64,000 nucleotides of DNA from Mesorhizobium ciceri biovar biserrulae WSM1271 (GTDB lineage: Bacteria > Pseudomonadota > Alphaproteobacteria > Rhizobiales > Rhizobiaceae), in contig NC_014923.1 in assembly GCF_000185905.1 (NCBI RefSeq), positions 682,001 to 746,000 of the forward strand, given 5' to 3'. The notes beneath the pieces are model-generated. The model made no database searches. It was not told the origin of the DNA and saw only the letters and a program-made list of their open reading frames with translations. Position 1 is the first letter of the stretch; every line of letters begins with the position of its first letter. Below, in pieces: positions 27,909 to 47,475 of this stretch. The position numbers and the translations under genes were made by a program.

Positions 27909-28000
27909 GACGCCGGAAAAAGTCCAATCGGTTTTGCCGTTCCGTCCATAACCGATCGATGCCCAGGGCGCTAGGGTTACGGCTTAAGAGGAGGACCATC

Positions 28001-31099: not shown

Positions 31100-32617
31100 A
31101 TGTCCGACCTGCAAGGCAATCTGAAAAAGGCCGAGGCCTATCTGGCCCGCTTCAAGCGCGATGGCGTTTTGAACCAGATCGGCGGCGAGGCGGTGCCGGC
31201 CCTCGATGGCGCGACGTTCGAAACGCTGTCGCCGGTCGACCTCAAGCCGCTGGCAAGCGTCGCGCGCGGCGGCGCCGCCGACATCGACCGCGCCGCCAAG
31301 GCGGCGAAGGCGGCGTTCCCAGCCTGGGCGGCCATGCCTGGCGAGGCACGCAAGAAGCTGCTGCACAAAATCGCCGACGCAATCGAAGCGCGCGCCGAGG
31401 AGATCGCTTTTGTCGAATGCATGGATACCGGCCAGGCGCTGAAGTTCATGGCCAAGGCAGCGCTGCGCGGTGCCGAGAATTTCCGTTTCTTCGCCGACCG
31501 CGCGCCCGAAGCGCGCGACGGCGAGACGCTGCGTACGACAGGCCAGGTCAATATGACGACGCGCGTTCCGATCGGCCCGGTCGGCATCATCACGCCGTGG
31601 AACACACCGTTCATGCTGTCGACGTGGAAGATTGCGCCAGCGCTGGCGGCCGGATGCACCGTGGTTCATAAGCCGGCTGAATTCTCGCCGCTGACCGCCC
31701 GCCTGCTGGTCGAGATCGCCGAGGAGGCCGGCCTGCCGAAAGGCGTATGGAACCTGGTCAACGGCCTTGGTGAAGACGCCGGCAAGGCGCTGACCGAGCA
31801 TCCCGACATCAGGGCGATCGGTTTTGTCGGCGAAAGCCGCACCGGTTCGATGATCATGAAGCAAGGCGCCGGCACGCTGAAGCGCGTGCATTTCGAGCTT
31901 GGCGGCAAGAACCCTGTGATCGTCTTTGCCGACGCCGATCTCGAGCGCGCCGCCGACGCCGCCGTATTCATGATCTATTCGCTGAATGGCGAGCGCTGCA
32001 CCTCGTCGTCGCGGCTTCTGGTCGAAGCCTCGATCTATGAAAGCTTCACCGCCAAAGTCGCGGAGAGGGCGAAGCGCATCGTCGTCGGCCACCCGCTCGA
32101 TCCGAAAACGGTGGTCGGGCCGCTGATCCATCCGGTGCATGAAAAGAAGGTGCTGTCCTATATCGACATCGGCAGGTCGGAGGGGGCGACGCTGGCCGTC
32201 GGCGGCGGCAAGGTCGATGGACCGGGAGACGGCTGTTATGTCGGCCCGACCCTGTTCACCAACGTGACCAACGGCATGCGCATCGCGCAGGAGGAGATTT
32301 TCGGGCCGGTGCTGAGCGCCATTCCGTTCAACGACGAGGCGGAAGCGCTGGCGCTGGCCAACGACACGCAATACGGCCTGACCGGCTATCTCTGGACCTC
32401 TGACGTCACCCGCGCCTTCCGTTTCACCGATGCGCTGGAGGCCGGCATGATCTGGGTTAACTCCGAGAACGTGCGGCATTTGCCGACCCCCTTCGGCGGC
32501 GTCAAGAATTCCGGCATCGGCCGCGACGGCGGCGACCATTCCTTCGACTTCTACATGGAGACGAAGAACGTCGCCTTCGCGACGACGGCGCACGCGATCC
32601 AGAAACTCGGCGGCTGA
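31100..32617 (+). CDS. hpaE: 5-carboxymethyl-2-hydroxymuconate semialdehyde dehydrogenase
   Basis: Aldehyde dehydrogenase of 505 residues that oxidises the ring-cleavage semialdehyde with NAD. The family signatures are GPVGIITPWNTPFMLSTWK, FELGGKNPVIVF and LNGERCTSSSRLLV, with Cys300 as nucleophile. The upstream reading frame is open, but the ATG at 31100 gives the usual N-terminus. It lies between hpaF and hpaD as in other hpa clusters. Confidence 0.93.
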   Translation: MSDLQGNLKKAEAYLARFKRDGVLNQIGGEAVPALDGATFETLSPVDLKPLASVARGGAADIDRAAKAAKAAFPAWAAMPGEARKKLLHKIADAIEARAEEIAFVECMDTGQALKFMAKAALRGAENFRFFADRAPEARDGETLRTTGQVNMTTRVPIGPVGIITPWNTPFMLSTWKIAPALAAGCTVVHKPAEFSPLTARLLVEIAEEAGLPKGVWNLVNGLGEDAGKALTEHPDIRAIGFVGESRTGSMIMKQGAGTLKRVHFELGGKNPVIVFADADLERAADAAVFMIYSLNGERCTSSSRLLVEASIYESFTAKVAERAKRIVVGHPLDPKTVVGPLIHPVHEKKVLSYIDIGRSEGATLAVGGGKVDGPGDGCYVGPTLFTNVTNGMRIAQEEIFGPVLSAIPFNDEAEALALANDTQYGLTGYLWTSDVTRAFRFTDALEAGMIWVNSENVRHLPTPFGGVKNSGIGRDGGDHSFDFYMETKNVAFATTAHAIQKLGG

Positions 32618-32631: not shown

Positions 32632-33612
32632 ATGCCCTTGCCCAAACCCAATCTCTACCCCGCCTTCAACATCGTGCGCCTCAGCCATGTCGAGTTGGCC
32701 GTCACCGACCTCGCCAAATCCCGCGCCTTCTATGTCGACACGCTCGGCCTGCAGGTTACCGACGAGACATCGGACACCATTTATCTCAGGGCGCTGGAGG
32801 AGCGCGGGCACCATTGCATCGTGCTGAAGAAGGCGGCCGCAGCCGAGGCGCGCGATCTCGGCTTCAAGGTCTTTTCGGACGAGGACCTCGACAAGGCCGA
32901 GTATTTCTTCAAGGGCAAGGGCATGCCGGTGGAATGGGTCGAGCGGCCCTACCAGTCGCGCACTTTTCGGACGCGCGACCCGCACGGGATTCCGCTGGAG
33001 TTCTATGCCCAGATGGAAAGGCTGCCGCCGATCCATCAGAAATATGCGCTCTACAAGGGCGTCAAGCCGCTGCGCATCGACCACTTCAACTGCTTCTCGC
33101 CCAATGTCGACGAGTCCGTCGCCTTCTACAACGAGCTCGGTTTTCGCGTCACCGAATACACCGAGGATGCCGCAACCGGGAAGCTTTGGGCAGCTTGGAC
33201 GCACCGCAAGGGCGGCGTCCACGACATCGCGTTCACCAACGGCATCGGCCCGCGCCTGCATCATGTCGCCTTCTGGGTGCCGACGCCGCTCAACATCATC
33301 GACCTGCTCGACCTGATGGCGACCACGGGCTATTTGCCGAACATCGAACGCGGCCCCGGCCGGCACGGCATCTCCAACGCCTTCTTCCTTTATGTCCGCG
33401 ACCCGGACAACCACCGCATCGAGATCTACTGCTCGGACTACCAGACGGTCGATCCCGACCTGGAGCCGATCAAGTGGGACCTCGAGGACCCGCAGCGCCA
33501 GACGCTGTGGGGCGCACCGGCGCCGAAAAGCTGGTTCGAGGAGGGCAGTGCGTTTGCCGGGGCGGAGGCGCGCCAGCCGGATTTGGCGGCTTCGCCGATC
33601 ATTGCGCCGTGA
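32632..33612 (+). CDS. hpaD: 3,4-dihydroxyphenylacetate 2,3-dioxygenase
   Basis: Extradiol dioxygenase of 326 residues built from two VOC domains, the Brevibacterium-type rather than the E. coli LigB-type HpaD. It cleaves homoprotocatechuate. Metal ligands expected are His151 (RIDHFN), one of His210/His211 (LHHVAF) and Glu264 (HRIEIY). The C-terminal DYQTVDPDLEPIKWDLEDPQRQTLWG is characteristic of this branch. A strong GGAGGAAA ribosome site precedes the ATG at 32632. Confidence 0.93.
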   Translation: MPLPKPNLYPAFNIVRLSHVELAVTDLAKSRAFYVDTLGLQVTDETSDTIYLRALEERGHHCIVLKKAAAAEARDLGFKVFSDEDLDKAEYFFKGKGMPVEWVERPYQSRTFRTRDPHGIPLEFYAQMERLPPIHQKYALYKGVKPLRIDHFNCFSPNVDESVAFYNELGFRVTEYTEDAATGKLWAAWTHRKGGVHDIAFTNGIGPRLHHVAFWVPTPLNIIDLLDLMATTGYLPNIERGPGRHGISNAFFLYVRDPDNHRIEIYCSDYQTVDPDLEPIKWDLEDPQRQTLWGAPAPKSWFEEGSAFAGAEARQPDLAASPIIAP

Positions 33613-33847: not shown

Positions 33848-34720
33848 ATGAAGCACGCACGGCTCGCCACCTTCACCGTCGGCGGCAAGGCGCGCTATGG
33901 CGCGGTCACCAGCAAGGGTGTCGTCGACCTGTCGGCGCGCCACGGCCAGTGGCCGACGCTGCGGGAAGTGATCGAGGCCGGCGCCTTGCGGCGGCTGGCG
34001 GAAGAGGCCGAGGCCTTCCCGATCGATTTCCCGCTCGACGCCATTGCCTACGAAATTCCGATCCCTTCGCCGGAAAAGATCATCTGCGTCGGCGTCAACT
34101 ATCCGGACCGCAACGAGGAGTACAAGGACGGCCAGGCAGCACCCTCGAATCCGTCGCTGTTCGTCCGTTTTCCCCGCTCCTTCGTCGGCCATGGCGCGCC
34201 GCTGGTGCGGCCGCCGGAATCCCCGCAGCTCGACTATGAGGGCGAAATCGTCATCGTCATCGGTAAGGCGGGACGGCGCATTGCCGAGGCCAACGCGCTC
34301 AGCCATATTGCGGCACTGTCGCTGTGCAATGAAGGCACCATCCGCGACTGGGTGCGGCATGCCAAGTTCAACGTCACGCAAGGCAAGAATTTCGACCGCA
34401 GCGGTTCAATCGGCCCATGGCTGGTGCCGTTCACCCACGAGGCGCAGATCGCCGACATCGCGCTGACCGCCCGCGTCAATGGCGAAATCCGCCAGCAGGA
34501 CCGCACCAGCCGGATGATCTTCTCGTTTCGCAAGATTATCGCCTATGTCTCGACCTTCACCACGCTGGTGCCGGGCGACATCATCGTCACCGGCACGCCG
34601 ACGGGCGCCGGCGCCCGCTTCGTGCCGCCGATCTGGCTGAAGCCGGACGATGTGATCGAGGTGGAGGCCGATGGCATTGGCATGCTTCAAAACGGCGTCG
34701 TCGACGAGGAAGCAGCATGA
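33848..34720 (+). CDS. hpaG: Fumarylacetoacetate hydrolase family protein, HpaG-like
   Basis: FAH-family enzyme of 290 residues. The C-terminal catalytic domain has IICVGVNYPDRNEEY, LDYEGEIVIVIGKAGRRI (metal-binding Glu) and TFTTLVPGDIIVTGTPTGAGARF. In the pathway it would decarboxylate or isomerise 2-oxohept-3-ene-1,7-dioate intermediates. E. coli HpaG is about 430 residues and holds two such domains; this one has a single domain, so one of the two activities could be supplied elsewhere. Its stop overlaps the hpaH start (ATGA). Confidence 0.85.
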   Translation: MKHARLATFTVGGKARYGAVTSKGVVDLSARHGQWPTLREVIEAGALRRLAEEAEAFPIDFPLDAIAYEIPIPSPEKIICVGVNYPDRNEEYKDGQAAPSNPSLFVRFPRSFVGHGAPLVRPPESPQLDYEGEIVIVIGKAGRRIAEANALSHIAALSLCNEGTIRDWVRHAKFNVTQGKNFDRSGSIGPWLVPFTHEAQIADIALTARVNGEIRQQDRTSRMIFSFRKIIAYVSTFTTLVPGDIIVTGTPTGAGARFVPPIWLKPDDVIEVEADGIGMLQNGVVDEEAA

Positions 34721-35523
34721 CCCCGGAGCAAGTGGAAGACGCCGCGGCACGGCTGTTCGAGGCCGAGCGTTCACGCCGCCAGATCCGGCTGCTCAGCCTC
34801 GATTTTCCCGAGGCGACGATGGAGGATGCCTATCGCGTGCAGGCAGCGCTGGTGACGCGCAAGATCGATGCCGGGCTGAAGCCGAAGGGCTGGAAGATCG
34901 GCCTGACCTCCAAGGCGATGCAATATGCGCTCGCCATCGACACGCCGGATTCGGGCGTGCTGTTCGACGACATGTTCTTCGACGATGGCGCGACCATTCC
35001 CGCCGGCAGCTTCATCCAGCCGCGTGTCGAGGCCGAGATCGCCTTCATCATGAAGGCGCCTCTGAAAGGCCCCGGCGTGACGATCTCCGACGTGCTCAAC
35101 GCCACCGACTACATCACACCGGCGCTGGAAATCCTCGATACGCGCATCGAGCGCGTCAATGCCGAGACCAAGAAGGTACGCACCTTCTTCGACACGATTT
35201 CGGACAATGCCGCCAATGCCGGCATCGTCATCGGCGGCCGGCCGCAGCGGCCTGATGAAGCCGACATGCGCTGGATGGGCGCCATCGTCTCGCGCAATGC
35301 CGAGGTCGAGGAGACCGGGCTTGGCGCCGGCGTGCTCAACCATCCGGCGATGGGCATTGCCTGGCTGGCCGACAGGCTCGCCCGCTACGGCATGTCGATC
35401 GCTGCCGGCGAGGTCGTTCTCTCCGGGTCGTTCGTGCGTCCGGTCGAGGCGCGACCCGGCGACACGATCGTCGCCGATTTCGGCAGTTCGGGCACGGTCA
35501 GCATCCATTTCGCGAAGGGCTGA
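34717..35523 (+). CDS. hpaH: 2-oxo-hept-4-ene-1,7-dioate hydratase
   Basis: Metal-dependent hydratase of 268 residues in the 2-oxopent-4-enoate hydratase family. Conserved segments include [49 protein letters not shown] (metal-binding Glu pair) and [16 protein letters not shown]. It is translationally coupled to hpaG. The next pathway enzyme, the HpaI aldolase, is not in this window. Confidence 0.93.
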
Positions 35524-35551: not shown

Positions 35552-36574
35552 CTATTCGCCATGCAGATAGGCAATCACCACATCGGCTGCGATGGCCGAC
35601 ATGCGCAGGCCGACCTCCCTGGTGATTTCGCCTTCGACGCGGCTCTGCACCCAGCCGAGGAAGGCGAAGGCCCGCAAGGCAGAGAACAGCGGCAGCGCGG
35701 CGATGTCGCGCGCCGTCAGTTCGCGCTCCTGCCGATAGCCCTTGAGCAAAGCGGCCTCGATCAGCGGATAGATCGCCTCATCGCGGTTCTGGTAAAGCGC
35801 GACGGCAAGGTCGTACATGTGCCAGCCATGGCCGCAATCGTCGAAGTCGATGATGCGGATCGCACCATCATGGACGAGCACATTCTCGCGCACCAGGTCG
35901 GCGTGGATGATGCCGAAATTGCGGGCACTGCGTTCATACGTCAATAGCGCGCGCACGGCCTTTTCGCGCGCCCGCAAAACCAACTCCCGGCGAGGACCGT
36001 CGAGGAAGGGCGAGGTCTCGAAACGCCCCCAATTCGGGTTCGCGCCGAAGAAGCCGTCGAAATCCCAGGCATGGCGGGCAAAGCCGGACGGAGGCGTCCA
36101 GGCTGCTGTGACATTGTGCATGTGGGCGATGGTTCGCCCGATCTCGGTAAAGATCTGTCTTGCCTGCTCGGGCGTAAAATCCAGCGGCACGCCTCGCGCG
36201 CCGACGGCGCGGCCTTCCAGCCAGCTCAGGCAATCGACTTGCCGGGGTTGCATTGAGGCGTTCGCGCTGACAAGCACGAACAGATCGCCAGCCGGCGTGG
36301 CGACCGCAGATGGCGTGGCGATGCCGGCCGATTGCAGAAAACCCATCCATTGCAGTTCCGAGCGCAGGGCGGCGTCCGTGTGATAGCCAAACCGGTGAAT
36401 GCGCATGGCGGCCGGCTGGCCATCGGGCAGACGGATCCGGAAGACCGCGTTCTCGCGGAATTTCAGCAGCTCCGGCTCACCCTCATCAATGCCCCAATGG
36501 GCGAGCGCGCGCCTGGCCAGCGCCGTGACGTCGGCTGCCGTCTCGGGTTCGGATTGCGCGGAGACTGCGCTCAC
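35552..36574 (-). CDS. APH-type phosphotransferase (kinase) paired with AGXT2L-like gene
   Basis: Kinase of 340 residues in the aminoglycoside phosphotransferase family. The catalytic and metal-binding segments are GIIHADLVRENVLV and IRIIDFDDCGHGWHMYDLAVAL. A GTG at 36574 overlaps the stop of the upstream aminotransferase gene (GTGA), giving tight coupling. Hydroxylysine kinase of mammals belongs to this family, and in some bacteria a kinase of this kind is fused to an AGXT2L-type enzyme. The likely job is phosphorylating a hydroxylated amine or amino acid; the substrate is inferred. Confidence 0.82.
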   Translation of the reverse strand: MSAVSAQSEPETAADVTALARRALAHWGIDEGEPELLKFRENAVFRIRLPDGQPAAMRIHRFGYHTDAALRSELQWMGFLQSAGIATPSAVATPAGDLFVLVSANASMQPRQVDCLSWLEGRAVGARGVPLDFTPEQARQIFTEIGRTIAHMHNVTAAWTPPSGFARHAWDFDGFFGANPNWGRFETSPFLDGPRRELVLRAREKAVRALLTYERSARNFGIIHADLVRENVLVHDGAIRIIDFDDCGHGWHMYDLAVALYQNRDEAIYPLIEAALLKGYRQERELTARDIAALPLFSALRAFAFLGWVQSRVEGEITREVGLRMSAIAADVVIAYLHGE

Positions 36575-37863
36575 GCCTTCACTCCGCCGACTTCGCCAAG
36601 CACTTCTTCGAGGACGCCGATCAGGAAGTCGGCATTGTCGCGGGAGAACGGCATTGGCGGGCGGATCTTCAACACATTGCCGTGGATGCCGGTCTTGCCC
36701 ATCAGCACGCCGCGCTGGCGCATCCGGTTGGCGACCTGCTCGGCAATGTCGGGCGCCGGTTCGCGCGTCTTGCGGTCGTGAACCAGTTCGGCGCCGAAGA
36801 ACAGGCCAGCGCCCCTGACCTCGCCGATACATTCATGGCGATCGGCGAGCGGGCGCAGCAGGTTGAGTGCATAGGCGCCGACGTCACGCGCGTTGGCAAC
36901 GAGATCTTCCTGCTCGATGACGTCGAGAACGGCATTGGCCACCGCGCAGGAAACCGGATTGCCGCCGAAGGTGTTGAAATAACGGAAGGCGTTGCGGAAG
37001 GTCGCCAATATCTCCCTTGATGTGACCACGGCGGCGATTGGATGGCCGTTGCCCATCGGCTTGCCCATGGTGACGATGTCGGGAACGAAGCCTGGGCGCT
37101 GGTGGCCCCAGAAATGACTGCCGGTGCGGCCGAAACCAGGCTGCACCTCGTCGGCGATGACCAGTCCGGCGGCGTCACGCACCGCGCGCATCGCGTCGTC
37201 GAAAAAGCCGGATGGGAGCGTCGGAAAGCCTTCATTGGCGAGCAGCGGACAAAGGATGATGCCGGACAGGCCGATACCGTCCTTTGCCAGCGCGGCGATG
37301 GCTTCGCGCACCGCGTCGCCAAAGGCTTTGCCGTTGGCCATCGCATCCGGATGGCGATAGCTGTCAGGCGCCGGCACCAGCCTGACATTGCGGGCGCGGC
37401 CGCCGACCGGCGGCATGCGGGTGCTGAGCTGCGAAACCGCCGCGGTGTTGCCATGATAGGTGGCGTCGGTGGCGATGATACCCATGCGGCCGGTGGCGGC
37501 CTGCGCCATGCGCAGCGCGATGTCGTTGGCCTCGCTGCCGGTGCAGGTCAGGATGGCGGTCGACAGGCTGGCATCGAAGGTCGCGGTCAGCCGCTCGACA
37601 TAGTCGAGGATGGCGGTGTGAAGATAGCGCGTGTGGGTGTTGAGCAGGCTTGCCTGCCGGCACAGGGCCTCGACCACATAGGGGTGGCAGTGGCCGACAT
37701 GGGCGACATTGTTGTACGCGTCGAGATATTTGCGGCCGTCGGCATCGTAGAGCCAGACGCCTTCGCCGCGCACCAGGTGCACCGGCTCGTCATAGAACAA
37801 TTGCGATTTTGCGCCGAGCAGGCGCGAACGCCGGCTAACCAGCGCTTCTTGCGGTTGAGTCAT
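36571..37863 (-). CDS. AGXT2L-type class III PLP enzyme (predicted amine phospho-lyase)
   Basis: Fold-type I PLP protein of 430 residues. NNVAHVGHCHPYVVEALC, CTGSEANDIALRMAQ, IADEVQPGFGRTGSHFWGHQ, DIVTMGKPMGNGHPIA (PLP lysine) and YFNTFGGNPVSCA are close to human ETNPPL and PHYKPL, which remove phosphate and ammonia from phosphoethanolamine or phosphohydroxylysine. The adjacent overlapping kinase supports that role rather than simple transamination. Start 37863 is chosen; the frame opens at 37947 but the added residues look foreign. Confidence 0.85.
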   Translation of the reverse strand: MTQPQEALVSRRSRLLGAKSQLFYDEPVHLVRGEGVWLYDADGRKYLDAYNNVAHVGHCHPYVVEALCRQASLLNTHTRYLHTAILDYVERLTATFDASLSTAILTCTGSEANDIALRMAQAATGRMGIIATDATYHGNTAAVSQLSTRMPPVGGRARNVRLVPAPDSYRHPDAMANGKAFGDAVREAIAALAKDGIGLSGIILCPLLANEGFPTLPSGFFDDAMRAVRDAAGLVIADEVQPGFGRTGSHFWGHQRPGFVPDIVTMGKPMGNGHPIAAVVTSREILATFRNAFRYFNTFGGNPVSCAVANAVLDVIEQEDLVANARDVGAYALNLLRPLADRHECIGEVRGAGLFFGAELVHDRKTREPAPDIAEQVANRMRQRGVLMGKTGIHGNVLKIRPPMPFSRDNADFLIGVLEEVLGEVGGVKA

Positions 37864-37897
37864 TGCGTCTCGAAACTCCGTTCTCTCCAATAAACCG

Positions 37898-39247
37898 TCA
37901 GACCTTCGACAGGCCTGCATCCAATGCTTCGCCGATCCTCGCGACATCCGCGGCGCTGACGATAAGCGGCGGCGACAGGATGATGGCGTTACCGGAGACG
38001 CGCAGCATGACGCCGGCCTCGTAGGCCGCCTCCGAAACCAATGCCATGGTCTTCTTGTCGGCGGGCTTTTTCGTCGCGCGGTCCGAGACCAGCTCCAGCG
38101 CCGCCATCAGGCCCTTGTACCGGACATCGCCGACGATCGCATGCTTCGCCTTCAGCCCCTCCAGCACGGCTGCGAGTTCGACACCACGCGCGGCCGCGTT
38201 CTCGTTCAGGCGCAGCCGTTTGGTCTCGGCAAGCGCCGCCAGACCCGCGGCGCAGCCGACAGGATGGCCGGAATAGGTATAGCCATGGCCGATGGCGCCG
38301 AAGCTGGTCTTGTCGGCCTCGAAGACATCGGCGACCTTGGCGCCGATCAAAGTGGCGCCGAGCGGGAAATAACCCGAAGTGATCGCCTTGGCGATGGTCA
38401 TGAAATCCGGCTTCACGCCGGACAGCCGCGAGCCCGACCAGGCGCCGGTGCGGCCGAAGCCGGTGACAACTTCATCGGCGATCAAAAGGATCTCGTGGCG
38501 GTCGCAGATCTCGCGCACCAGCGGCATGAAGCTCTCATGCGGAACGATGACGCCGCCGGCGCCGAGAACCGGCTCCATGATGAAAGCGGCGATGGTGTCG
38601 CCGCCCTGGAAGGCGATTTCGTCCTCCAGCGCCTTGGCGCAGAGTTTTGCCAGCCGCACTGGGTCGGTCTCGTCGAACGGGTTGCGGAAGGTCCAGGGCG
38701 CGGGAATGTGGAAGACGCCCGGCAGCAGCGGCTCGTAGTTGCGGCGGAAATTGGCATTGCCGTTGACCGACGCGCCGCCGAAATGCGTGCCGTGGTAGCC
38801 TTTCTTCAGCGCCAGGAACTTGGTCCGGTCGGCCTGGCCGCGGATCTTCCAGTACTGCCGCGCCAGCCGAAGTGCCGTTTCGACCGAATCCGAGCCGCCC
38901 GAAGTGAAAAACGTCCGCACCATGCCTTCTGGCTCGAACCATTCGCAGAGTTCGTAGGCGAGCTCGATCGACGGGCCGGTCGAGGTGCCGCGAAAGCCGG
39001 AATAATAGGGCAGCGCGCCAAGCTGGTCGGCGATCGCTTTCTTGATCGGGTCGCAGCTGTAGCCGAGATTGACGTTCCACAGGCCGCCGACGGCGTCGAG
39101 CACGGTGTTGCCGGCGATGTCGGTGACCATCACACCCTCGCCTTTCATGATCACCTTTGGCGGGTTGGCCCGCATCTCGGCCGGATGCGCCATCGGATGC
39201 CAGATCGGCTTGGCGTTGGTTTCGGTGAGAAAATTGATGTCGCGCAT
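37898..39247 (-). CDS. Class III omega-aminotransferase
   Basis: PLP-dependent aminotransferase of 449 residues, similar to beta-alanine/putrescine:pyruvate aminotransferases. It has VLDAVGGLWNVNLGYS, FTSGGSDSVETALRLARQYW, KKGYHGTHFGG, LIADEVVTGFGRTGAW and PDFMTIAKAITSGYFPLGA with the Schiff-base Lys. The start at 39247 opens MRDINFLTETNAKPIWHPM, usual for this group. It would move the amino group from an omega-amino compound to pyruvate or 2-oxoglutarate. It lies 19 bases behind the HAD gene. Confidence 0.88.
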   Translation of the reverse strand: MRDINFLTETNAKPIWHPMAHPAEMRANPPKVIMKGEGVMVTDIAGNTVLDAVGGLWNVNLGYSCDPIKKAIADQLGALPYYSGFRGTSTGPSIELAYELCEWFEPEGMVRTFFTSGGSDSVETALRLARQYWKIRGQADRTKFLALKKGYHGTHFGGASVNGNANFRRNYEPLLPGVFHIPAPWTFRNPFDETDPVRLAKLCAKALEDEIAFQGGDTIAAFIMEPVLGAGGVIVPHESFMPLVREICDRHEILLIADEVVTGFGRTGAWSGSRLSGVKPDFMTIAKAITSGYFPLGATLIGAKVADVFEADKTSFGAIGHGYTYSGHPVGCAAGLAALAETKRLRLNENAAARGVELAAVLEGLKAKHAIVGDVRYKGLMAALELVSDRATKKPADKKTMALVSEAAYEAGVMLRVSGNAIILSPPLIVSAADVARIGEALDAGLSKV

Positions 39248-39266
39248 AATGGACTCCGCAAAAATC

Positions 39267-39935
39267 TCAGGCAACTGGGACGAGGTCGAAATGGCCGAGG
39301 GCCTCGGCATAGGAATGAGCCGGGCGGGCGACGTCGAAATGCACCGTGCGCATGCCGGCAGCACAGCCGCCATCGACATTGCGCCGCTGGTCGTCGACGA
39401 AGACGCAAGCGCTGGCCGGCAGGCCAAGCGCCTCGGTGACGAAGGCATAGGCACGCGGGTCGGGCTTGAGGATGCCGGTGTAAGTGGCGTCGATGATCAC
39501 ATCGAAGAGGCCGAGCAACGGCAGCCGCTGGCGGAAGTCGGCGCCGTAGAACAGGTCGAGTTCATTGGACAGGATGGCCAGTCGAAAACCGGCGGCATGC
39601 ACCGTGCGAATGGTGCTGTCAGCCTCCGGCCGCACCACCTTTTCCGGCTCGGCCCCTCGCGCGCGCCGGACGAAGGTCTCCATCGCCTGCCAGTCCTCGC
39701 CCACCAGACGGCCGACCTCGCTTGTGCGTGTGCGCCAATAGTCACGCTCGCTGATCTCGTCGGCCTGCATGGCGCGCCACAGCGGATCGCTGCCCGGATC
39801 GAACGGCCCGCGCCATTGCAGCGTCCCCGGCGCGAGGCCGAGCGCCTGTTCGGTCAAGGCGTGGGTCTCGAACAGCGTGCGGGTGACGACGCCGCCGAAA
39901 TCGAGGACAAGCGCCTGGGCGGGAACAGCACTCAC
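39267..39935 (-). CDS. HAD superfamily hydrolase
   Basis: HAD-fold phosphatase-like protein of 222 residues. Motif I reads LVLDFGGVVTRT, in which the second Asp of DxDxT is replaced by Gly, as in several dehalogenase-like or noncanonical HADs. Motif II LSNE and motif IV CVFVDDQRRNVDGG follow. The start GTG overlaps the previous stop (GTGA). In this operon it could act on a phosphorylated intermediate, but the missing Asp makes phosphatase activity less sure. Confidence 0.8.
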   Translation of the reverse strand: MSAVPAQALVLDFGGVVTRTLFETHALTEQALGLAPGTLQWRGPFDPGSDPLWRAMQADEISERDYWRTRTSEVGRLVGEDWQAMETFVRRARGAEPEKVVRPEADSTIRTVHAAGFRLAILSNELDLFYGADFRQRLPLLGLFDVIIDATYTGILKPDPRAYAFVTEALGLPASACVFVDDQRRNVDGGCAAGMRTVHFDVARPAHSYAEALGHFDLVPVA

Positions 39936-41212
39936 GCCGCCACTCCCTTGGCCGGCTTGCCACGCGGGACGATGCCTTCCTCGACCCAGCGGTCGAAGAT
40001 CTCGAGCGCCTTGCCGACGAAGTCGTCGCTGTTGATGTGAGCGTCGATCTCGTGGAACTCGACGCCGACGGGAATGACCTTGCGAATTTCGTCAGTGAAG
40101 GCGGCCAGGGCTTCCGGCTCATAGAGCGGCTCGCCCTCCACGTCCCATTCCTGGATGCCTTGGGAGGGCAGGATGAAGGCGGAGCGGCCTCTGGCGGCAC
40201 CGAGCTTGGCGGCGATGGTCCTGGCGACCTGGCGGCGATCGTCGGCATCGACGGTGATCGAAGCGATCAGCCTGTTGTGGGCATGAAACGGTCGCGTCGA
40301 GAATTTAGCCGGCAAATCCTGCCAGGTCGGCAGGTCGACCATGTCGACCGCGCCGGGTGCTGCGATCTGCGGAACGCCGCGAGCGCCGGCATTCTCCAGC
40401 CGGTCGGTGCCGGAACTGACGACGGAGCCCGCGAGATGGTTGGTGATTTCCTGCAGGCTGAAGTCGAACACCGCGCAGAAATGGTCTTGGCCGGCAATCG
40501 ATTCGAAGGCGCGGCCGCCCATTCCGGTGGTGTGGAAGACGGCAACGTCATAGCCGCGCTGTTCCAGCGCCGGCTTCAGCGTCTTCATGTAGCGCAGGCA
40601 GCTGCTGCCGAGCGAGGTCATGCCGATGGTCGGGCCTGTTGCCCGCGCCGACACGCGCGACGCCAGCACGATTTTCGCCGCGCCGACGACCGCACCACAG
40701 GCCTGTGACAGGACCAGCCTGCAGATCGAGTTGAGGCCGTACAGCCCGCCCGCCCAGAGGATCATCATCAGGTCGGGCGCGACGCGCTCGGGTGGGATGA
40801 GGTGCGAATAGGCGATGGTCGAGACGACGAATTTCGGCACGCCGAGCGGCAGGCAAAGCGCCACGTCGAGCGCCAGATCGGTTCCCATCGAACCGCCGAT
40901 GGCGATGAAGGCGTCAATCTCGCCGTTTTGATGGAGCTTGCGCACCAGTTGCACGGCGCCGCCGGCCATCAGCGTCATGGCGGTGTTCTCGTCACCGCTC
41001 GAAACGATCTCGGCGATCGTCACATCCACCGCCCGCGCCACGGCGTGCTTATCGTGGTCCGGGCTGTAGGGCGGGTCGCCGAGCACACTGACATCCATCA
41101 TCACGGCGCTGCCGCCCGACTGCTCGATGCACTGTTTCATGAACAACAGCTCTTCGGCCTTTGTGTCGCCCGTGCCGATGACCAAGATGCGGGGTGCTGT
41201 CTCCGAGGGCAT
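39932..41212 (-). CDS. Tm-1-like/UPF0261 family protein
   Basis: Protein of 426 residues in the UPF0261 family, related to the ATP-binding domain of tomato Tm-1. It has a Rossmann-like start (ILVIGTGDTKAEELLFMK), VMMDVSVLG, FIAIGGSMGTDLAL, a central GMTSLGSSCLRYMKTLKPALEQRGYDVAVFHTTGMGGRAFE and the C-terminal GIQEWDVEGEPLYEPEALAAF. The bacterial role is unknown. It is translationally coupled to the IclR gene (TGATG) and overlaps the HAD gene. Confidence 0.85.
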   Translation of the reverse strand: MPSETAPRILVIGTGDTKAEELLFMKQCIEQSGGSAVMMDVSVLGDPPYSPDHDKHAVARAVDVTIAEIVSSGDENTAMTLMAGGAVQLVRKLHQNGEIDAFIAIGGSMGTDLALDVALCLPLGVPKFVVSTIAYSHLIPPERVAPDLMMILWAGGLYGLNSICRLVLSQACGAVVGAAKIVLASRVSARATGPTIGMTSLGSSCLRYMKTLKPALEQRGYDVAVFHTTGMGGRAFESIAGQDHFCAVFDFSLQEITNHLAGSVVSSGTDRLENAGARGVPQIAAPGAVDMVDLPTWQDLPAKFSTRPFHAHNRLIASITVDADDRRQVARTIAAKLGAARGRSAFILPSQGIQEWDVEGEPLYEPEALAAFTDEIRKVIPVGVEFHEIDAHINSDDFVGKALEIFDRWVEEGIVPRGKPAKGVAA

Positions 41213-42036
41213 CAGGCCTGCCTCCTCAGGGTTTGCAGGTTCTCGCCGTTGAGGCGCATCGAAATTTCCCGTGCCGCTTCCATCACCGCAAGTCCCCGTT
41301 CCGCGATCGCGGCTGCCGTGGTTCTGGCCTTTGGCGCCGCCACCGCGATGGTGCCGAGCGCAAAGCCATCCGCCCCGCGGATTGCCGCCGCGACGCTGAT
41401 CACACCTTCCTCATAGCCCTGGTCGCAGATCGAATAGCCGCGCTCGCGCGCCTCGCCCATGGATCTTGAGATGGCGGCCGGCTCGATCAGCGTATGGGCC
41501 GTGAAGGCATCGAGCGAACCCGTCAGGCACGCCTTGACGGTCTCGTCGCGGGCGAAGGCCAGATAGGCGATGCCCGACGCGGTCGAATGCAAAGGCAGCA
41601 ACTGACCGATGTCGATGTTGACCCGGTTTGCCCATGCTGGATGCTCGACGTTGACGGTGACCAGCCTATCGACGCCGAATTCCGACAAATGCACGGTCTC
41701 GGCCGTCGATGCGGCCAGGTCCCGCACCAGCGGAACGGCCGTCTGCAGGAAGGGAAAGCGCGCCTCGCGGATGCGCGCCAGCCGCGACAGCCCGGCGCCG
41801 AGGCGATAGTGCCGCGTACCCGCATCCTGCTCGACGAAACCACGGCCGGCCAGCGCTACCAGCAGCCGCCTTGTCGTCGCCTTGTCGAAGCCCGAGCGGC
41901 GCGCCAGATCGGACAGGCCGAGCTCGGGCTCGTCGACGTTGAACAGCTCCAGAAGCAAGATCGCTTTTCCGACCGTACTCAAATTTGCCTCCCGGTTCGG
42001 ACAATCATTTAACGTGTGAATTAACTTGACAGGCAT
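41212..42036 (-). CDS. IclR family transcriptional regulator
   Basis: Regulator of 274 residues with an N-terminal winged HTH (TVGKAILLLELF, GLSDLARRSGFDKATTRRLLVALAGRGFVEQD) and a C-terminal GAF-like effector domain (LHSTASGIAYLAF, GYSICDQGYEEGVISVAAAI). It is divergent from the APC permease; its own message continues into the Tm-1-like gene. The GGTTCA-N5-TGAACC palindrome in the shared gap is a likely operator. The effector is not known. Confidence 0.9.
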   Translation of the reverse strand: MPVKLIHTLNDCPNREANLSTVGKAILLLELFNVDEPELGLSDLARRSGFDKATTRRLLVALAGRGFVEQDAGTRHYRLGAGLSRLARIREARFPFLQTAVPLVRDLAASTAETVHLSEFGVDRLVTVNVEHPAWANRVNIDIGQLLPLHSTASGIAYLAFARDETVKACLTGSLDAFTAHTLIEPAAISRSMGEARERGYSICDQGYEEGVISVAAAIRGADGFALGTIAVAAPKARTTAAAIAERGLAVMEAAREISMRLNGENLQTLRRQA

Positions 42037-42069
42037 CAGCATTGTTTGCAAGTCTATATTCAAAATAAC

Positions 42070-42086
42070 GGTTCAAATAATGAACC
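42070..42086. promoter_or_regulatory. GGTTCA-N5-TGAACC palindrome, likely IclR operator
   Basis: Perfect six-base arms surround AATAA in the gap between the divergent iclR and permease genes, about 70 bases before the permease ATG. IclR-family sites often have this kind of spaced inverted repeat. Confidence 0.6.
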
Positions 42087-42154
42087 AACCACCAGAGTGC
42101 ATGGGACAGGCCATTCGGCCGGCGAACTCAAGGGTTGGCAAACAGGAGGGATCA

Positions 42155-43603
42155 ATGACAGCAGTCTCGGAACAGGCGCCGGCCAACAGGCTGCGCAAGA
42201 ACAGTCTTGGCGTCGGCGCCATCACCTTCATGGTGATTTCTGCGGCCGCCCCACTCACGGCAGTCGCCGGCGGCACGCCGCTTGGCATGCTGATGGGCAA
42301 TGGCGCCGGCTTTGCCGGCACCTATCTCATCGTGACCGTGCTGCTGCTTTTGTTCGCGGTCGGCTATGTCGCCATGTCACGCCATGTCGGCAATGCCGGC
42401 GCCTTCTATGCCTATGCCGCACGCGGCCTCGGCAGCATGGCCGGCGGCGCCACGGCGCTGATCGCCATCCTGTCCTACAACGCCATGCAGATCGGCGTCA
42501 TGGGCCTGCTGGGCGCCGCAACCGCCGGCCTGTTCGCCGCCTGGGGCATCAACCTGCCCTGGTGGGTGTGGAGCTTCATCGCCATCGCGCTGGTCGCCGT
42601 GCTCGGCTATCGGCAGGTCGACCTCTCCGCCAAGATCCTGACGGTGCTGGTGCTGTGCGAATATCTTGTGGTGCTGATCCTCGATATCGCCATCCTCAAG
42701 ACCGGCGGCGATAGCGGCCTGTCGGCGGCGCCATTCAGCTGGAGCCAGATCGTCAGCGGCTCGCCGGCCATCGCCATCCTGTTCTGCTTCGCCGCCTTCA
42801 TCGGTTTCGAGGCGACGACGATCTATGCCGAGGAAGCCCGCGACCCAAAGGTCACCATTCCGCGCGCCACCTATTTCTCGGTCGTGCTGATCGGCGTCTT
42901 CTACATGCTCACGGCATGGCTGATGGCGGTCGGCGCCGGTGTCGACAAATTGCTGCCGACGCTGCAGGGATTGCAGGATCCGACGACCTTCCTGTTCGGC
43001 CTGTCCGACCGCTACGCCGGCACGATGCTTTCGCAGGCGATGAGCATCCTGTTCGTGTCGAGCCTGTTTGCCGGCGTGCTGGCGTTCCACAATGCGGTTG
43101 CGCGCTACATCTACGTCTCGGGCCGCGAGAAGCTGTTGCCGCAGACGATCGGCGTGACGCATCCGGTGCACCAGAGCCCACATGTCGCTTCCGTCATCCA
43201 GAGCGTGCTCGCCGCGGTCGTTGTCGGCCTGTTCGCCGTGCTCGGCCTCGATCCGGTGCTGGCGCTGTTTTCGTGGCTGACCAATGTCGCGACGCTCGGC
43301 GTCATCGTGATGATGGCGGTGGCATCGCTTGCCGTGGTGATGTTCTTCCGCGCCAACCCGGCGGCCCACGAGAATGCGCTGAAGACCACCATCCTGCCCG
43401 GGCTGACCTTCATCGCCTTCGTCATCATCATCTATTTGATCGTCATCAATTTCGGCAGCCTGTCGGGAGCCGGCGGTTTCCTTGGCGTGTTCCTGCCGGG
43501 GCTGGTGCTGATCGCCGCGATCGTCGGCCTGCTGCTGGCCAGCGCGCTGAAGAGCCGCGATCCGGTCGCGTTCAAAAACCTCGGCCAGCCGCTGAAAGAT
43601 TGA
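42155..43603 (+). CDS. APC family amino acid permease
   Basis: Membrane transporter of 482 residues with about 12 hydrophobic helices. Helix 1 reads GVGAITFMVISAAAPLTAVAGGTPLG, followed by a YLIVTVLLLLFAVGYVAMSRH segment, and helix 6 has CFAAFIGFEATTIYAEEARDPKVTIPRATY, the APC signature. The ATG at 42155 has an AGGAGGG ribosome site. It is the first gene of the operon with the P450 and aldehyde dehydrogenase, so it should import their substrate. Confidence 0.92.
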   Translation: MTAVSEQAPANRLRKNSLGVGAITFMVISAAAPLTAVAGGTPLGMLMGNGAGFAGTYLIVTVLLLLFAVGYVAMSRHVGNAGAFYAYAARGLGSMAGGATALIAILSYNAMQIGVMGLLGAATAGLFAAWGINLPWWVWSFIAIALVAVLGYRQVDLSAKILTVLVLCEYLVVLILDIAILKTGGDSGLSAAPFSWSQIVSGSPAIAILFCFAAFIGFEATTIYAEEARDPKVTIPRATYFSVVLIGVFYMLTAWLMAVGAGVDKLLPTLQGLQDPTTFLFGLSDRYAGTMLSQAMSILFVSSLFAGVLAFHNAVARYIYVSGREKLLPQTIGVTHPVHQSPHVASVIQSVLAAVVVGLFAVLGLDPVLALFSWLTNVATLGVIVMMAVASLAVVMFFRANPAAHENALKTTILPGLTFIAFVIIIYLIVINFGSLSGAGGFLGVFLPGLVLIAAIVGLLLASALKSRDPVAFKNLGQPLKD

Positions 43604-43611
43604 GAAAAGCA

Positions 43612-43638
43612 AAGGGGCGGCATGCCACGCCGCCCCTT
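43612..43638. terminator. Strong GC hairpin between permease and P450 genes
   Basis: AAGGGGCGGC and GCCGCCCCTT form a perfect ten-base stem around ATGCCAC, right after the permease stop. There is no long T-run, so it may only reduce read-through or stabilise the message before the P450. Confidence 0.55.
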
Positions 43639-43652
43639 ACACCACAAGGGGA

Positions 43653-44855
43653 GTGGCGGATTTGAGCTTTGCCGAAAATATCACCGTCGAGGCATTGGAA
43701 GCCGATCCCTACCCGATCTATGCAGAGCTTAGGCGCAGTGCGCCGGTCGCTTTCGTGCCGGCGGTCAATCTTTGGTTCGTCACCCGCTGGAAGGATGTCG
43801 AGAGCGTCGCCAAGTCGCCCGAGATCTTCTCCGCCGTCGTCGGCTCGTCACCAGTTGAGCGCTCCTTCGGCAAGCCGACCATCCTGACCACCGATGGCGA
43901 GACGCACAAGCAACTGCGCCAAGGCGTCGACCCGAAATACCGGCCGCGCACCGTCGCCGCCTATGCCGGCGACCTCGTGCGGTCGATTGCCGAACCTTTT
44001 CTGGACCGGATCGCCAACCAGGGCTCCGCCGAGCTGATGGCCGATTATTTCGAGCCGGTGTCGACGCTCAGCCTGGCGCGCTCGCTCGGCCTTGCCGGCA
44101 TCGATATGCCGACGCTGCGCCGCTGGTTCTACGGCCTTGCCCAGGGCGCCATCAATTTCGAGAACGATCCGAAACGGCAGGAGATCGCCGACGCAATCAG
44201 TGCCGAGGTCGGCGACGCCATCCTGCCGACGCTGGAAAGACTTGCGCGCCAGCCAGATGACTCGGCGCTGTCGCACATGCTGCATGACGGCATGCCGGAG
44301 GGCACGACGCGGCCGATCGACTTTCTGATGCCCAGCATCAAGGTCATCCTGCTTGGCGGCATGCAGGAGCCCGGACATGGCGCCGGCTCGATCCTCGCCG
44401 GCCTGCTGGCCCATCCCAAGCAATTGCGGCAGGTGCTCGCCGATCCCGAGACTTTCGTGCCGAGGGCGGTCGACGAGGGCCTGCGCTGGGTGGCGCCGAT
44501 CGGCACGCAGACGCGGCAGACGACGCGGGCAGTCGAGCTTGGCGGCGTGACGATCCCGGCCGGCGCTGCCGTCGCCGCCCTCGTCGCTTCGGCAAGCCGC
44601 GACGAGAGTCGCTTTGCCGATCCCGACCGCTTCGACATCAACCGCAACGAAGGCAACCATGCCGCCTTCGGCTTCGGCCATCATTTCTGTTCGGGCCGGT
44701 TCTTCGCACGCGAGCAGATGTGCCTTGCGGTGAGGCTGTTGCTCCAACGCTTCCCCGATCTCAGCCTTGTGCCGAGCAGGGAACCGGTGTTTCGCGGCTG
44801 GGAATTCCGCGCGCCAACCACATTGCATGTTTCCCTTGGAGTCCGTCACCAATGA
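43653..44855 (+). CDS. Cytochrome P450 with atypical I-helix
   Basis: P450 of 400 residues, soluble bacterial type. The heme loop FGFGHHFCSGRFFAREQ has Cys346 as iron ligand, and the ExxR helix is present as EGLRW (Glu-Gly-Leu-Arg). The I-helix reads LLGGMQEPGHGAGS: where most P450s have an acid-Thr pair it has Glu239-Pro240, so oxygen activation may differ. The GTG start at 43653 has AAGGGG upstream, and the stop overlaps the aldehyde dehydrogenase start (ATGA). No ferredoxin gene is adjacent. Confidence 0.9.
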   Translation: MADLSFAENITVEALEADPYPIYAELRRSAPVAFVPAVNLWFVTRWKDVESVAKSPEIFSAVVGSSPVERSFGKPTILTTDGETHKQLRQGVDPKYRPRTVAAYAGDLVRSIAEPFLDRIANQGSAELMADYFEPVSTLSLARSLGLAGIDMPTLRRWFYGLAQGAINFENDPKRQEIADAISAEVGDAILPTLERLARQPDDSALSHMLHDGMPEGTTRPIDFLMPSIKVILLGGMQEPGHGAGSILAGLLAHPKQLRQVLADPETFVPRAVDEGLRWVAPIGTQTRQTTRAVELGGVTIPAGAAVAALVASASRDESRFADPDRFDINRNEGNHAAFGFGHHFCSGRFFAREQMCLAVRLLLQRFPDLSLVPSREPVFRGWEFRAPTTLHVSLGVRHQ

Positions 44856-46339
44856 TCAGTCAGAATGCCATCGAAACGCTGCGCAAGACGGAGATCGGCG
44901 CGCAGGGCCTGTTCATCGATGGCGTGCAGGTCGAGGCAACAAGCGGCGCAAGCCTGCCGGTGACGTCGCCGATCGACGGCCGACCTTTCGCCAGCATCGC
45001 CGACGGCAACGCCGCCGATATCGACCGCGCCGTGAAGTCGGCGCGCAAGGCGTTCGAGAAGGGCTCGTGGTCGCGCGCCACACCCGCCTTTCGCAAGAAG
45101 GTGCTGACGAAATTCGCCGATCTGGTCGAGAAACACGCCGATGAGCTCGCCGTGCTCGGTGTGCGCGACAACGGCACCGAGATCGGCATGGCCTACAAGG
45201 CAGAACCGCTGTCGGCGGCAGGCACCATCCGCTACTATGCCGAGGCCATCGACAAGGTCTATGGCGAGATCGCGCCGACGGCCGAGAATGTGCTCGGACT
45301 GATCCACAAGGAGCCGCTCGGCGTCGTCGGCGTCATCGTGCCGTGGAATTTCCCGCTGATGATCGGTGCCTGGAAGATCGCGCCTGCACTTGCCGCCGGC
45401 AATTGCGTGGTGGTCAAGCCGCCGGAGATCGCCTCGCTGACGCTGCTGCGGCTGGCCGAACTGGCAAGCGAGGCCGGCTTGCCCGCCGGTGTGCTCAACG
45501 TCGTCACCGGGCTTGGCGCGGTCACCGGCGAGGCGCTCGGCCTGCATATGGATGTCGACGCCATCGCCTTCACCGGTTCCGGCCCGGTCGGCCGGCGGCT
45601 GCTCGAATATTCCGCTCGCTCCAATCTGAAGCGCGTCTTCCTCGAACTCGGCGGCAAGTCGCCGAACATCGTCTTTGCCGACGCCCCGGACCTGAAACAG
45701 GCAGCGGTCGTCTCGGCCAATGGCATCTTCCGCAATTCCGGCCAGGTCTGCGTCGCCGGCTCGCGGCTTCTCGTCCAGTCAGCGGTCTACGACCGCTTCA
45801 TGGACGAACTGCTCTCGGCAACCATGCGGCTCAAAGTCGGCGATCCGCTTGATCTCACCAGCGATGTCGGCGCGGTATCGAGCGCCGAACAGCTGGACAA
45901 GAACCTCGGTTTCGTCGCCAGGGCCACGGAAGAAGGTGCCCGTCTCGTCACCGGCGGCCAGCGGATGCTGACCGAGACCGGTGGCAGCTACATGGCGCCA
46001 ACGATCTTCGAGAATGTCATGCAGGACATGCAGTTGGCGCGTGAGGAGGTGTTCGGGCCGGTGCTCGGCGTCATGCGCTTCGAGACCGAGGAGGAGGCGG
46101 TTCGGCTTGCCAATTCGACCGTCTACGGGCTTGCCTCCGCGGTGTGGACCGCCAATCTCTCCACCGCGCATCGCATGGTGCGCGCCATCAATGCCGGCGT
46201 CGTCCACGTCAACACCTATGGCGGCGCCGACATCACCGTGCCGCTCGGCGGCGTCAAGCAGTCCGGCTTCGGCCGCGACAAGTCGCTGCACGCGCTGGAG
46301 AAATATTTGGAACTGAAGACGGCCTGGATCGCGCTTTGA
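44852..46339 (+). CDS. Aldehyde dehydrogenase, PuuC-like
   Basis: NAD-dependent dehydrogenase of 495 residues. GVVGVIVPWNFPLMIGAWK, LELGGKSPNIVF (Glu265) and NSGQVCVAGSRLLVQ (Cys300) are in place; closest in look to gamma-glutamyl-aminobutyraldehyde dehydrogenases. It overlaps the P450 stop and would oxidise an aldehyde made by the P450, the aminotransferase or the phospho-lyase of this locus. Confidence 0.9.
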   Translation: MISQNAIETLRKTEIGAQGLFIDGVQVEATSGASLPVTSPIDGRPFASIADGNAADIDRAVKSARKAFEKGSWSRATPAFRKKVLTKFADLVEKHADELAVLGVRDNGTEIGMAYKAEPLSAAGTIRYYAEAIDKVYGEIAPTAENVLGLIHKEPLGVVGVIVPWNFPLMIGAWKIAPALAAGNCVVVKPPEIASLTLLRLAELASEAGLPAGVLNVVTGLGAVTGEALGLHMDVDAIAFTGSGPVGRRLLEYSARSNLKRVFLELGGKSPNIVFADAPDLKQAAVVSANGIFRNSGQVCVAGSRLLVQSAVYDRFMDELLSATMRLKVGDPLDLTSDVGAVSSAEQLDKNLGFVARATEEGARLVTGGQRMLTETGGSYMAPTIFENVMQDMQLAREEVFGPVLGVMRFETEEEAVRLANSTVYGLASAVWTANLSTAHRMVRAINAGVVHVNTYGGADITVPLGGVKQSGFGRDKSLHALEKYLELKTAWIAL

Positions 46340-46583
46340 CGGCACGCTGAGCTCTCTGAGAATCTGACGACCTCCAGACGCGCGCAAGATCGCGCCGCGA
46401 TCCGCTGCGGCCGGTCAAGCGGCGGCTTTTGCTCACGCTCTTGAAAATTTTGAGAGGATATTCCCGGCTTTGGCGAGAATGGCGAAACGCGTTCTTTGAT
46501 AAACTTGATAGAATTTCTGAGGATGCGACCAAGGCTAGGCAATCCGCCTCGCTGCCATGACTTCACAACCGCAGAGATCAATC

Positions 46584-47438: not shown

Positions 47439-47475
47439 TCCGGTCCTCGGCCGGAAGCCCGGTTCGAGAGCAACA

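Follow-up and report, generated by a model that had tools for sequence, protein, structure and literature searches.

A predicted upper pathway for octopamine- and tyramine-type phenolic amines adjoining the hpa meta-cleavage cluster of Mesorhizobium ciceri biovar biserrulae WSM1271

A divergent nine-gene locus of Mesorhizobium ciceri biovar biserrulae WSM1271 probably encodes the upper steps in the catabolism of octopamine- and tyramine-type phenolic amines, delivering 4-hydroxyphenylacetate to the adjoining 4-hydroxyphenylacetate/homoprotocatechuate (hpa) meta-cleavage cluster. The locus lies within a stretch of 64,000 nucleotides (the window; contig NC_014923.1, positions 682,001 to 746,000) of the 6.69 Mb genome. 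Family scans and the open reading frames (ORFs) of the window recovered all nine families of the initial annotation in the order and on the strands that it had described: a minus-strand operon for an IclR-type regulator, a Tm-1-like protein, a HAD hydrolase, an omega-aminotransferase, a class-III pyridoxal 5'-phosphate (PLP) phospholyase and an APH-fold kinase, facing a plus-strand operon for an APC-family permease, a cytochrome P450 and an aldehyde dehydrogenase (ALDH). Gene overlaps, noted there for the minus-strand operon, amount to 4 bp for phospholyase/kinase, Tm-1/HAD and P450/ALDH and 1 bp for IclR/Tm-1; the touching or overlapping minus-strand genes and the P450/ALDH pair are arranged as in translationally coupled operons.

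Each substrate and reaction in the scheme that we infer for this locus is a prediction from gene families and gene neighborhood. The amine would be imported by the APC permease. Beta-hydroxylated amines of the octopamine and noradrenaline type would be phosphorylated on the side-chain hydroxyl by the kinase, and the phospholyase would eliminate phosphate from the resulting vicinal amino-phosphate, giving an enamine that would hydrolyze to 4-hydroxyphenylacetaldehyde and ammonia. Tyramine and dopamine, which have no such hydroxyl, would instead reach an aldehyde of this kind through the omega-aminotransferase. The ALDH would then form 4-hydroxyphenylacetate, to be hydroxylated by HpaBC to homoprotocatechuate, with ring opening and degradation by HpaD-E-F-G-H. 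Where present, the P450, which resembles the guaiacol O-demethylase GcoA, would strip the O-methyl group from guaiacyl amines or products (3-methoxytyramine type) and so yield the catechol directly. The IclR regulator would control both divergent operons through the palindrome GGTTCA-N5-TGAACC. In the sections of PMC10816480 consulted, wild-type AbHpaBC, from a different HpaBC system, did not hydroxylate octopamine, which would fit processing of the side chain first.

The hpa cluster begins directly beyond the kinase gene: hpaH ends at 35523 and the kinase gene at 35552, on facing strands with 28 bp between them. HpaD, HpaE and HpaH pass the curated cut-offs of their models and HpaA, HpaB, HpaC and HpaG fall under theirs; a Pfam scan of HpaH at E 1e-5 gives no family. 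The probable HpaF is assigned from its position, a 5-carboxymethyl-2-hydroxymuconate isomerase being annotated beside hpaE in Rhizobium sp. NZLR1. Together with an aromatic amino-acid decarboxylase in related loci and the GcoA-like P450, these neighbors make an aromatic substrate the most likely one, so that the hydroxylysine- or ethanolamine-like substrates suggested by the initial annotation now appear less likely than a phenolic amine. Its broader proposal, in which kinase, class-III phospholyase and ALDH form one route for a hydroxylated amine, is supported by the family assignments.

Gene content and linkage were compared in the best 80 of 541 confirmed matches from a phospholyase-alignment scan of a species-genome collection, a sample that leans to close relatives because only these best matches were kept. 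Genes were scored by tblastn with preset identity thresholds (at least 45% for the P450 and at least 55% for the aromatic amino-acid decarboxylase), and some contigs are short. The best phospholyase matches elsewhere belong to Mesorhizobium, at up to 95%. The kinase gene adjoins the phospholyase gene in all 80 loci, on the same strand and with a gap of less than 400 bp. The eight genes other than the P450 occur together in 53 of the 80 loci and all nine in 13, which argues that the grouping is not a matter of chance and bears out the conserved co-occurrence proposed earlier as a check.

Linkage to hpa genes recurs across this sample: hpaD or hpaE is found in 53 of the 80 loci and any of hpaB/D/E/G/H in 55, within about 10 kb. 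Among the 53 full-core loci, 48 have hpaD or hpaE, two on short contigs (L029 and L045) have only hpaH or hpaG/H, and three from Shinella (L049, L057 and L062) have no nearby hpa gene, hpaD being located elsewhere in those genomes. The median distance between phospholyase and hpaD genes is 3,077 bp (52 loci), and phospholyase and hpaE share a strand in 34 loci and lie on opposite strands in 19. In a Rhodobacteraceae locus (L107) the order is hpaE-D-G-H-phospholyase-kinase on one strand, with ~30 bp separating the hpaH match from that of the phospholyase, and in Sulfitobacter (L088) the kinase-phospholyase pair lies 3 kb from hpaH-G-decarboxylase-D-E. Three Rhizobium plasmid loci (L009, L011 and L012) hold the same set, but there the P450 follows the ALDH and is itself followed by hpaABC; L011 and L012 also have hpaE and hpaD beyond the kinase, the P450 of L011 being a short partial match. 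An Ensifer plasmid locus (L010) has hpaE and hpaD, and the P450 is absent from its stretch. In a phospholyase tree of 55 rows thinned from 87, including four forced-in rows picked for context, a well-supported 49-row clade splits into three sub-branches, all of which include hpa-linked rows.

The association also holds at the genome level. Among 397 genomes of the order, nine have the phospholyase (E<=1e-150) and 56 have hpaD (E<=1e-80); hpaD is present in eight of the nine phospholyase genomes and in 48 of the 388 others (Fisher p 8e-7, uncorrected for relatedness among the genomes, four of the nine belonging to one genus). The two genes are spaced 2.9 to 3.2 kb apart in six of the nine genomes, lie on different contigs in two, and in the last (G256) hpaD is missing at E<=1e-80.

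The phospholyase assignment is based on both overall similarity and diagnostic positions. Its top PDB matches are the phospholyase 5g4i (E 1.6e-117, 45.8% identity), which we take to have phosphoethanolamine activity, and the human ethanolamine-phosphate phospho-lyase 6tor (E 1.4e-110, 44.3% identity), followed by a match at only 7.1e-61; identity to the neighboring omega-aminotransferase is 25.4%. Twenty-four alignment columns, including an NNV motif, are shared by more than 95% of 84 phospholyase rows, by 5g4i and 6tor and by a paralogue from the same genome; none of them appears in the 67 omega-aminotransferase rows, and each turns up in no more than one of six other class-III paralogues. 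By these comparisons the PLP enzyme belongs with class-III phospholyases (ETNPPL/A1RDF1 type) and not with transaminases, and the corresponding catalysis is predicted. In this chemistry the phosphorylated carbon must have a primary amine as its neighbor, as in the elimination reactions of phosphoethanolamine and phosphohydroxylysine; octopamine O-phosphate has the required geometry, and 4-hydroxyphenylacetaldehyde is therefore the predicted product. The kinase has intact versions of the APH hallmarks, the HxDxxxxN catalytic loop (HADLVREN) and the DFD metal motif (IDFDD), and scores above the PF01636 cut-off, as expected of an APH-type small-molecule kinase with a predicted amino-alcohol substrate. 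The paralogue (L117, 50% identity) has as neighbors an ArgE/DapE deacylase and a protein that matches PRK06148 in its kinase part, and no hpa genes were found around it. In a Mesorhizobium a second kinase-phospholyase pair (L048) has an aminotransferase, an ALDH and a demethylase-type protein with flavin adenine dinucleotide (FAD) and GcvT domains nearby.

Within the genus, two genomes (G105 and G265) carry the aminotransferase, HAD, Tm-1, IclR, APC, P450 and ALDH genes beside hpaABC, with no kinase at E<=1e-20 and no phospholyase at E<=1e-150. Since these genomes keep the other seven genes without the kinase-phospholyase pair, the locus looks like two modules, the pair being one separable unit. 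The remaining seven genes may work alone, and the simplest assumption is that they would then handle amines whose side chain carries no hydroxyl. For the same reason, namely that aminotransferase, permease and ALDH persist there, a parallel entry point for amines lacking the hydroxyl is a more likely role for the omega-aminotransferase than the removal of a second amino group that the initial annotation envisaged. In G229 and G248, which also belong to the genus, hpaD is present, and kinase (E<=1e-20) and phospholyase (E<=1e-150) were not found.

Relatives of an aromatic amino-acid decarboxylase occur in 11 of the 80 loci, besides a Shinella plasmid locus (L025). The best solved relatives of the Shinella plasmid enzyme are DOPA and aromatic-L-amino-acid decarboxylases (E 2e-116 for DOPA decarboxylase). 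The gene lies between hpaD and hpaG in seven loci of Ensifer and other Rhizobiales (by coordinates in L054 and L065) and between the ALDH gene and the Tm-1 operon in Shinella L025, L049 and L062. From amino acids, such a decarboxylase would produce amines of the tyramine, dopamine or octopamine type. The M. ciceri genome has a homologue with 75% identity, which was set aside: it is distant from the locus, its neighbors are genes of different types, and its fetched stretch has no copy of the palindrome within two mismatches. The Tm-1-like protein is explained by neither module: it lies just beyond the kinase-phospholyase pair in L090, L092 and L094, and in a Variovorax plasmid (L024) it is accompanied by the HAD hydrolase, two class-III aminotransferases, a succinate-semialdehyde dehydrogenase and two short-chain dehydrogenases/reductases, with no kinase or hpa genes annotated in that stretch.

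The top structures for the P450, at E about 1e-92 to 1e-91, are 8u09, named merely cytochrome P450, and entries of GcoA and its variants. Against 6hqk, an F169 variant of GcoA, it has 42.4% identity (165 of 389 aligned residues), P450 families being defined by identity above 40%. It has QEPG in the I helix and is identical to GcoA at positions 75, 241, 244, 245, 292, 296 and 395, seven of nine substrate-side positions compared besides 169, a set that we chose in part on what we take to be the GcoA pocket. Position 169 is Ala; passages of PMC6628648 report Ala at this position in the majority of CYP255A sequences and turnover of syringol by GcoA F169A. According to parts of PMC6021390, carboxylic substituents (vanillate, ferulate) preclude GcoA binding or demethylation, and an amine or aldehyde is thus favored over homovanillate as the substrate. 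By similarity, aromatic O-demethylation of the CYP255A/GcoA type is a more likely function of the P450 than a hydroxylation that makes the amino alcohol. The P450 is an optional component, found in 13 of the 80 loci. A PF00970 search for a reductase partner gave four places in the genome, one of them in the window (56219-57184) and none in the locus. The protein at 56219-57184 was rejected as a specific partner: of 14 genomes or records compared, 13 have a match regardless of whether the P450 is present, and the sole miss is a plasmid record alone.

The predicted IclR operator, GGTTCAAATAATGAACC at 42070-42086, matches GGTTCA-N5-TGAACC perfectly, as does no other site in the genome; together with nine one-mismatch copies this makes ten sites, versus four for a reversed control pattern. 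Among 86 examined loci, 61 have both IclR and APC genes, and the palindrome lies between them within one mismatch in 59 (56 perfect, three with one mismatch) and with two mismatches in L052 and L095. A sigma-70 promoter scan beside the palindrome found none. Extra copies possibly mark further members of the regulon. In Shinella a second palindrome lies between the decarboxylase gene and the Tm-1 operon (perfect in L025 and L062, one mismatch in L049) and, in L057, which has no decarboxylase, between ALDH and Tm-1 (one mismatch). In six rhizobial loci a copy stands just before an amidohydrolase gene (perfect in L061; one mismatch in L051, L066, L075, L076 and L078), the L066 protein being an Amidohydro_3. 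In Pseudosulfitobacter (L027) a perfect palindrome lies beside IclR, with aminotransferase, ALDH and Tm-1 genes and no kinase annotated in the stretch.

Several observations weigh against the proposed role in octopamine- and tyramine-type catabolism. The fetched DNA of 25 of the 80 loci has no hpa gene, and 11 of these 25 genomes, of unstated completeness, also have no hpaD at E<=1e-80, so the kinase-phospholyase pair can occur apart from hpa. In the other direction, 48 of the 56 hpaD genomes have no phospholyase at E<=1e-150, hence hpa does not need it. Beyond the kinase of plasmid locus L009 there are an amidase gene (3451-4890), a major facilitator superfamily transporter and a regulator, and not hpaDE; the amidase is possibly an amide-releasing enzyme. 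No palindrome within two mismatches was found at the hpa promoters in the window, and co-regulation of the locus and hpa is therefore not supported. The nearest solved phospholyases are 5g4i and the ethanolamine-phosphate enzyme, and the nearest solved structures of the kinase reveal no substrate. The P450 differs from GcoA at positions 166 and 295, and no gene for a GcoB-like reductase was found within the locus. Some HpaB enzymes accept tyramine (sections of PMC10816480), so ring hydroxylation could precede attack on the side chain. The neighborhood alone cannot separate octopamine from other phenolic ethanolamines. Finally, neighbors of the sarcosine/dimethylglycine-dehydrogenase FAD/GcvT type in L048, L059, L090, L092, L094 and L114 (assigned by Pfam for L048 and L092 and by similarity for the others) suggest other, N-methylated substrates. 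Given these genes and those of the old yellow enzyme (OYE) type beside the pair in distant relatives, the wider kinase-phospholyase family probably has several substrates, with distant relatives using other amino alcohols.

Three other explanations were weighed against this evidence. The pair could degrade a non-aromatic amino alcohol (ethanolamine, 1-amino-2-propanol or hydroxylysine), its adjacency to hpa reflecting mere clustering of catabolic genes. The ethanolamine-phosphate enzyme among the closest solved phospholyases and the 11 genomes without either local hpa genes or hpaD are in keeping with such a substrate; we nevertheless regard it as unlikely, because the hpa linkage recurs in different gene orders and lineages, including the same-strand hpaEDGH arrangement, and because the 50%-identical paralogue with its PRK06148-like neighbor, away from hpa, could serve aliphatic compounds. 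The main substrate could instead be an N-methylated phenolic ethanolamine such as synephrine or adrenaline, first N-demethylated by the P450 or, in relatives, by FAD/GcvT enzymes. PLP enzymes require a primary amine, and FAD/GcvT demethylase-type and OYE-type genes do occur near the pair in L059, L090, L092, L094 and L114, yet the P450 resembles an O-demethylase, a P450 of this type is missing from the fetched DNA of 67 of the 80 loci, and the FAD/GcvT type is absent among the nine genes, which leaves this substrate class distinctly improbable.

The route drawn in the initial annotation, with hydroxylation of the amine by the P450 followed by phosphorylation, release by the lyase and removal of a second amino group from a diamine or lysine-like substrate, fits the gene families on paper. 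As the maker of the amino alcohol the P450 was rejected, since none at 45% identity or more accompanies the pair in those 67 loci (L059 has one at 32%) and since G105 and G265 have it without kinase and lyase; its named best matches, moreover, are aromatic O-demethylases, and we consider the whole route very improbable.

The upper pathway proposed here combines features of several known systems. Like the ethanolamine-phosphate and phosphohydroxylysine phospho-lyases (AGXT2L1, AGXT2L2) with their kinases, including hydroxylysine kinase, it pairs a kinase with a class-III PLP phospholyase (44-46% identical to human ETNPPL and to 5g4i) whose target would be a vicinal amino alcohol, but it is linked to an aromatic ring-cleavage cluster, a GcoA-like P450 and, in relatives, an aromatic amino-acid decarboxylase, and its substrate is predicted to be phenolic. 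Kinase, phospholyase and aldehyde dehydrogenase act in series in the amino-alcohol O-phosphate pathway for 1-aminopropan-2-ol of Pseudomonas and Erwinia; there the substrate is aliphatic, whereas the same enzyme series here would give an aldehyde feeding hpa. Tyramine and dopamine catabolism in Pseudomonas and Escherichia proceeds via 4-hydroxyphenylacetate or homoprotocatechuate (HpaBC, HpaD onwards) after entry by an amine oxidase or dehydrogenase; the lower pathway is the same, whereas entry here is predicted via the omega-aminotransferase and the kinase-phospholyase pair. Unlike in GcoAB (CYP255A), with which it shares 42.4% identity (6hqk), QEPG and the seven positions, the P450 has Ala169, changed residues 166 and 295, no adjoining GcoB gene and an amine-locus setting. 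PbfA, (R)-1-hydroxy-2-aminoethylphosphonate ammonia-lyase, is likewise a class-III PLP enzyme but is described in the available part of PMC8154272 as performing direct 1,2-elimination on an amino alcohol without prior phosphorylation, whereas the present phospholyase gene has a kinase gene alongside in every one of the 80 loci.

The palindrome copies before amidohydrolase genes suggest, without proof, hydroxycinnamoyl-type amides as a possible natural source of these amines. Portions of two articles bear on their occurrence in plants. Alfalfa root exudates list p-octopamine and 3-methoxytyramine among their differential metabolites (PMC10005544). In potato, feruloyl-octopamine builds up in wound tissue, and a suberin-transporter mutant has raised feruloyl-noradrenaline when wounded (PMC11885807). 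We advance, as a tentative and rather doubtful extension, that rhizobia and relatives hold a dedicated regulon for plant-wall phenolamines. Amidohydrolases behind the same operator would split hydroxycinnamoyl amides to give tyramine, octopamine, noradrenaline and 3-methoxytyramine; guaiacyl forms would be demethylated by the GcoA-like P450; beta-hydroxy amines would pass through an octopamine kinase and an O-phospho-octopamine ammonio-phospholyase, the latter a new aromatic AGXT2L branch, to 4-hydroxyphenylacetaldehyde for meta cleavage; and the Tm-1-like and HAD proteins would be new accessory enzymes. Among the titles and opening lines of abstracts listed from the open-access literature (PMC), which leaves older physiology and subscription journals outside its scope, we found none on a bacterial octopamine kinase or phospholyase or on this locus, and the main text of the rhizoSMASH paper (PMC12462448) does not mention octopamine, tyramine, homoprotocatechuate, hydroxyphenylacetate or ethanolamine. 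If correct, the proposed pathway would provide genes for bacterial breakdown of octopamine-type amines via a phosphorylated intermediate, extend ammonio-phospholyases to aromatic substrates, place a lignin-type P450 O-demethylase in amine catabolism, name a possible diet of legume symbionts from plant roots, and give the Tm-1-like (UPF0261) protein a defined metabolic setting.

Features of the locus and of the adjoining hpa cluster in window coordinates; gene starts were chosen by us among the possible ORF starts, and that of IclR is uncertain
Feature	Position	Strand	Basis
HpaA-like AraC regulator	27039..27908	-	TIGR02297 E 1.6e-39, under cut-off
HpaB, 4-hydroxyphenylacetate 3-monooxygenase oxygenase	27959..29545	+	TIGR02310 E 8.1e-232, under cut-off
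HpaC-like flavin reductase	29552..30061	+	RutF E 5.8e-57, HpaC E 5.6e-43, both under cut-off
Probable HpaF isomerase	30702..31088	+	ORF position only
HpaE semialdehyde dehydrogenase	31100..32617	+	TIGR02299, above cut-off
HpaD, 3,4-dihydroxyphenylacetate 2,3-dioxygenase	32632..33612	+	TIGR02295, above cut-off
HpaG-type isomerase/decarboxylase	33848..34720	+	TIGR02303 E 5e-46, under cut-off
HpaH hydratase	34717..35523	+	TIGR02312, above cut-off
APH-fold kinase, predicted amino-alcohol (octopamine-type) kinase	35552..36574	-	PF01636 E 2.5e-25; GTG start
Class-III PLP phospholyase (AGXT2L/ETNPPL type), predicted O-phospho-octopamine to 4-hydroxyphenylacetaldehyde, ammonia and phosphate	36571..37863	-	PDB matches
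Omega-aminotransferase, predicted tyramine/dopamine-type entry	37898..39247	-	NCBIfam PRK07481 E 9.7e-221, above cut-off; top PDB 5lh9, an omega-transaminase
HAD-IA hydrolase, predicted phosphatase	39267..39935	-	PF00702 E 3.7e-17; LDFGG at N-terminus
Tm-1-like UPF0261 protein	39932..41212	-	PF06792, PF23189; PDB 9mpy, 3wry, 3wrw
IclR-type regulator, predicted local	41212..~42063	-	PF01614, PF09339
Palindrome GGTTCAAATAATGAACC, predicted IclR operator	42070..42086	.	between IclR and permease genes
APC-family amine/amino-acid permease	42155..43603	+	PF13520 E 1.2e-23
GcoA-like cytochrome P450, predicted aromatic O-demethylase, optional	43653..44855	+	PDB matches
Aldehyde dehydrogenase, predicted 4-hydroxyphenylacetaldehyde dehydrogenase	44852..46339	+	PF00171 E 1.2e-165

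The ALDH scores under the curated cut-off of all 25 NCBIfam models listed (25 of 44). Downstream of it are a MetQ-type lipoprotein gene and ABC-transporter-like ORFs (46557-49264); MetQ occupies the same position in loci L028-L047, from Mesorhizobium and one other bacterium, and was seen in none of the other 60 loci. Within the hpa cluster, a minus-strand ORF that appears MarR-like by eye (30091-30534) lies between hpaC and the probable hpaF. Farther along the window, the minus strand carries a GcvT-like folate-binding protein (50122-51252) and adjacent hydantoinase/oxoprolinase B and A genes (52307-56135), and a 790-aa protein with two aldehyde-dehydrogenase stretches (58458-60830) lies behind a DeoC/LacD-family aldolase.

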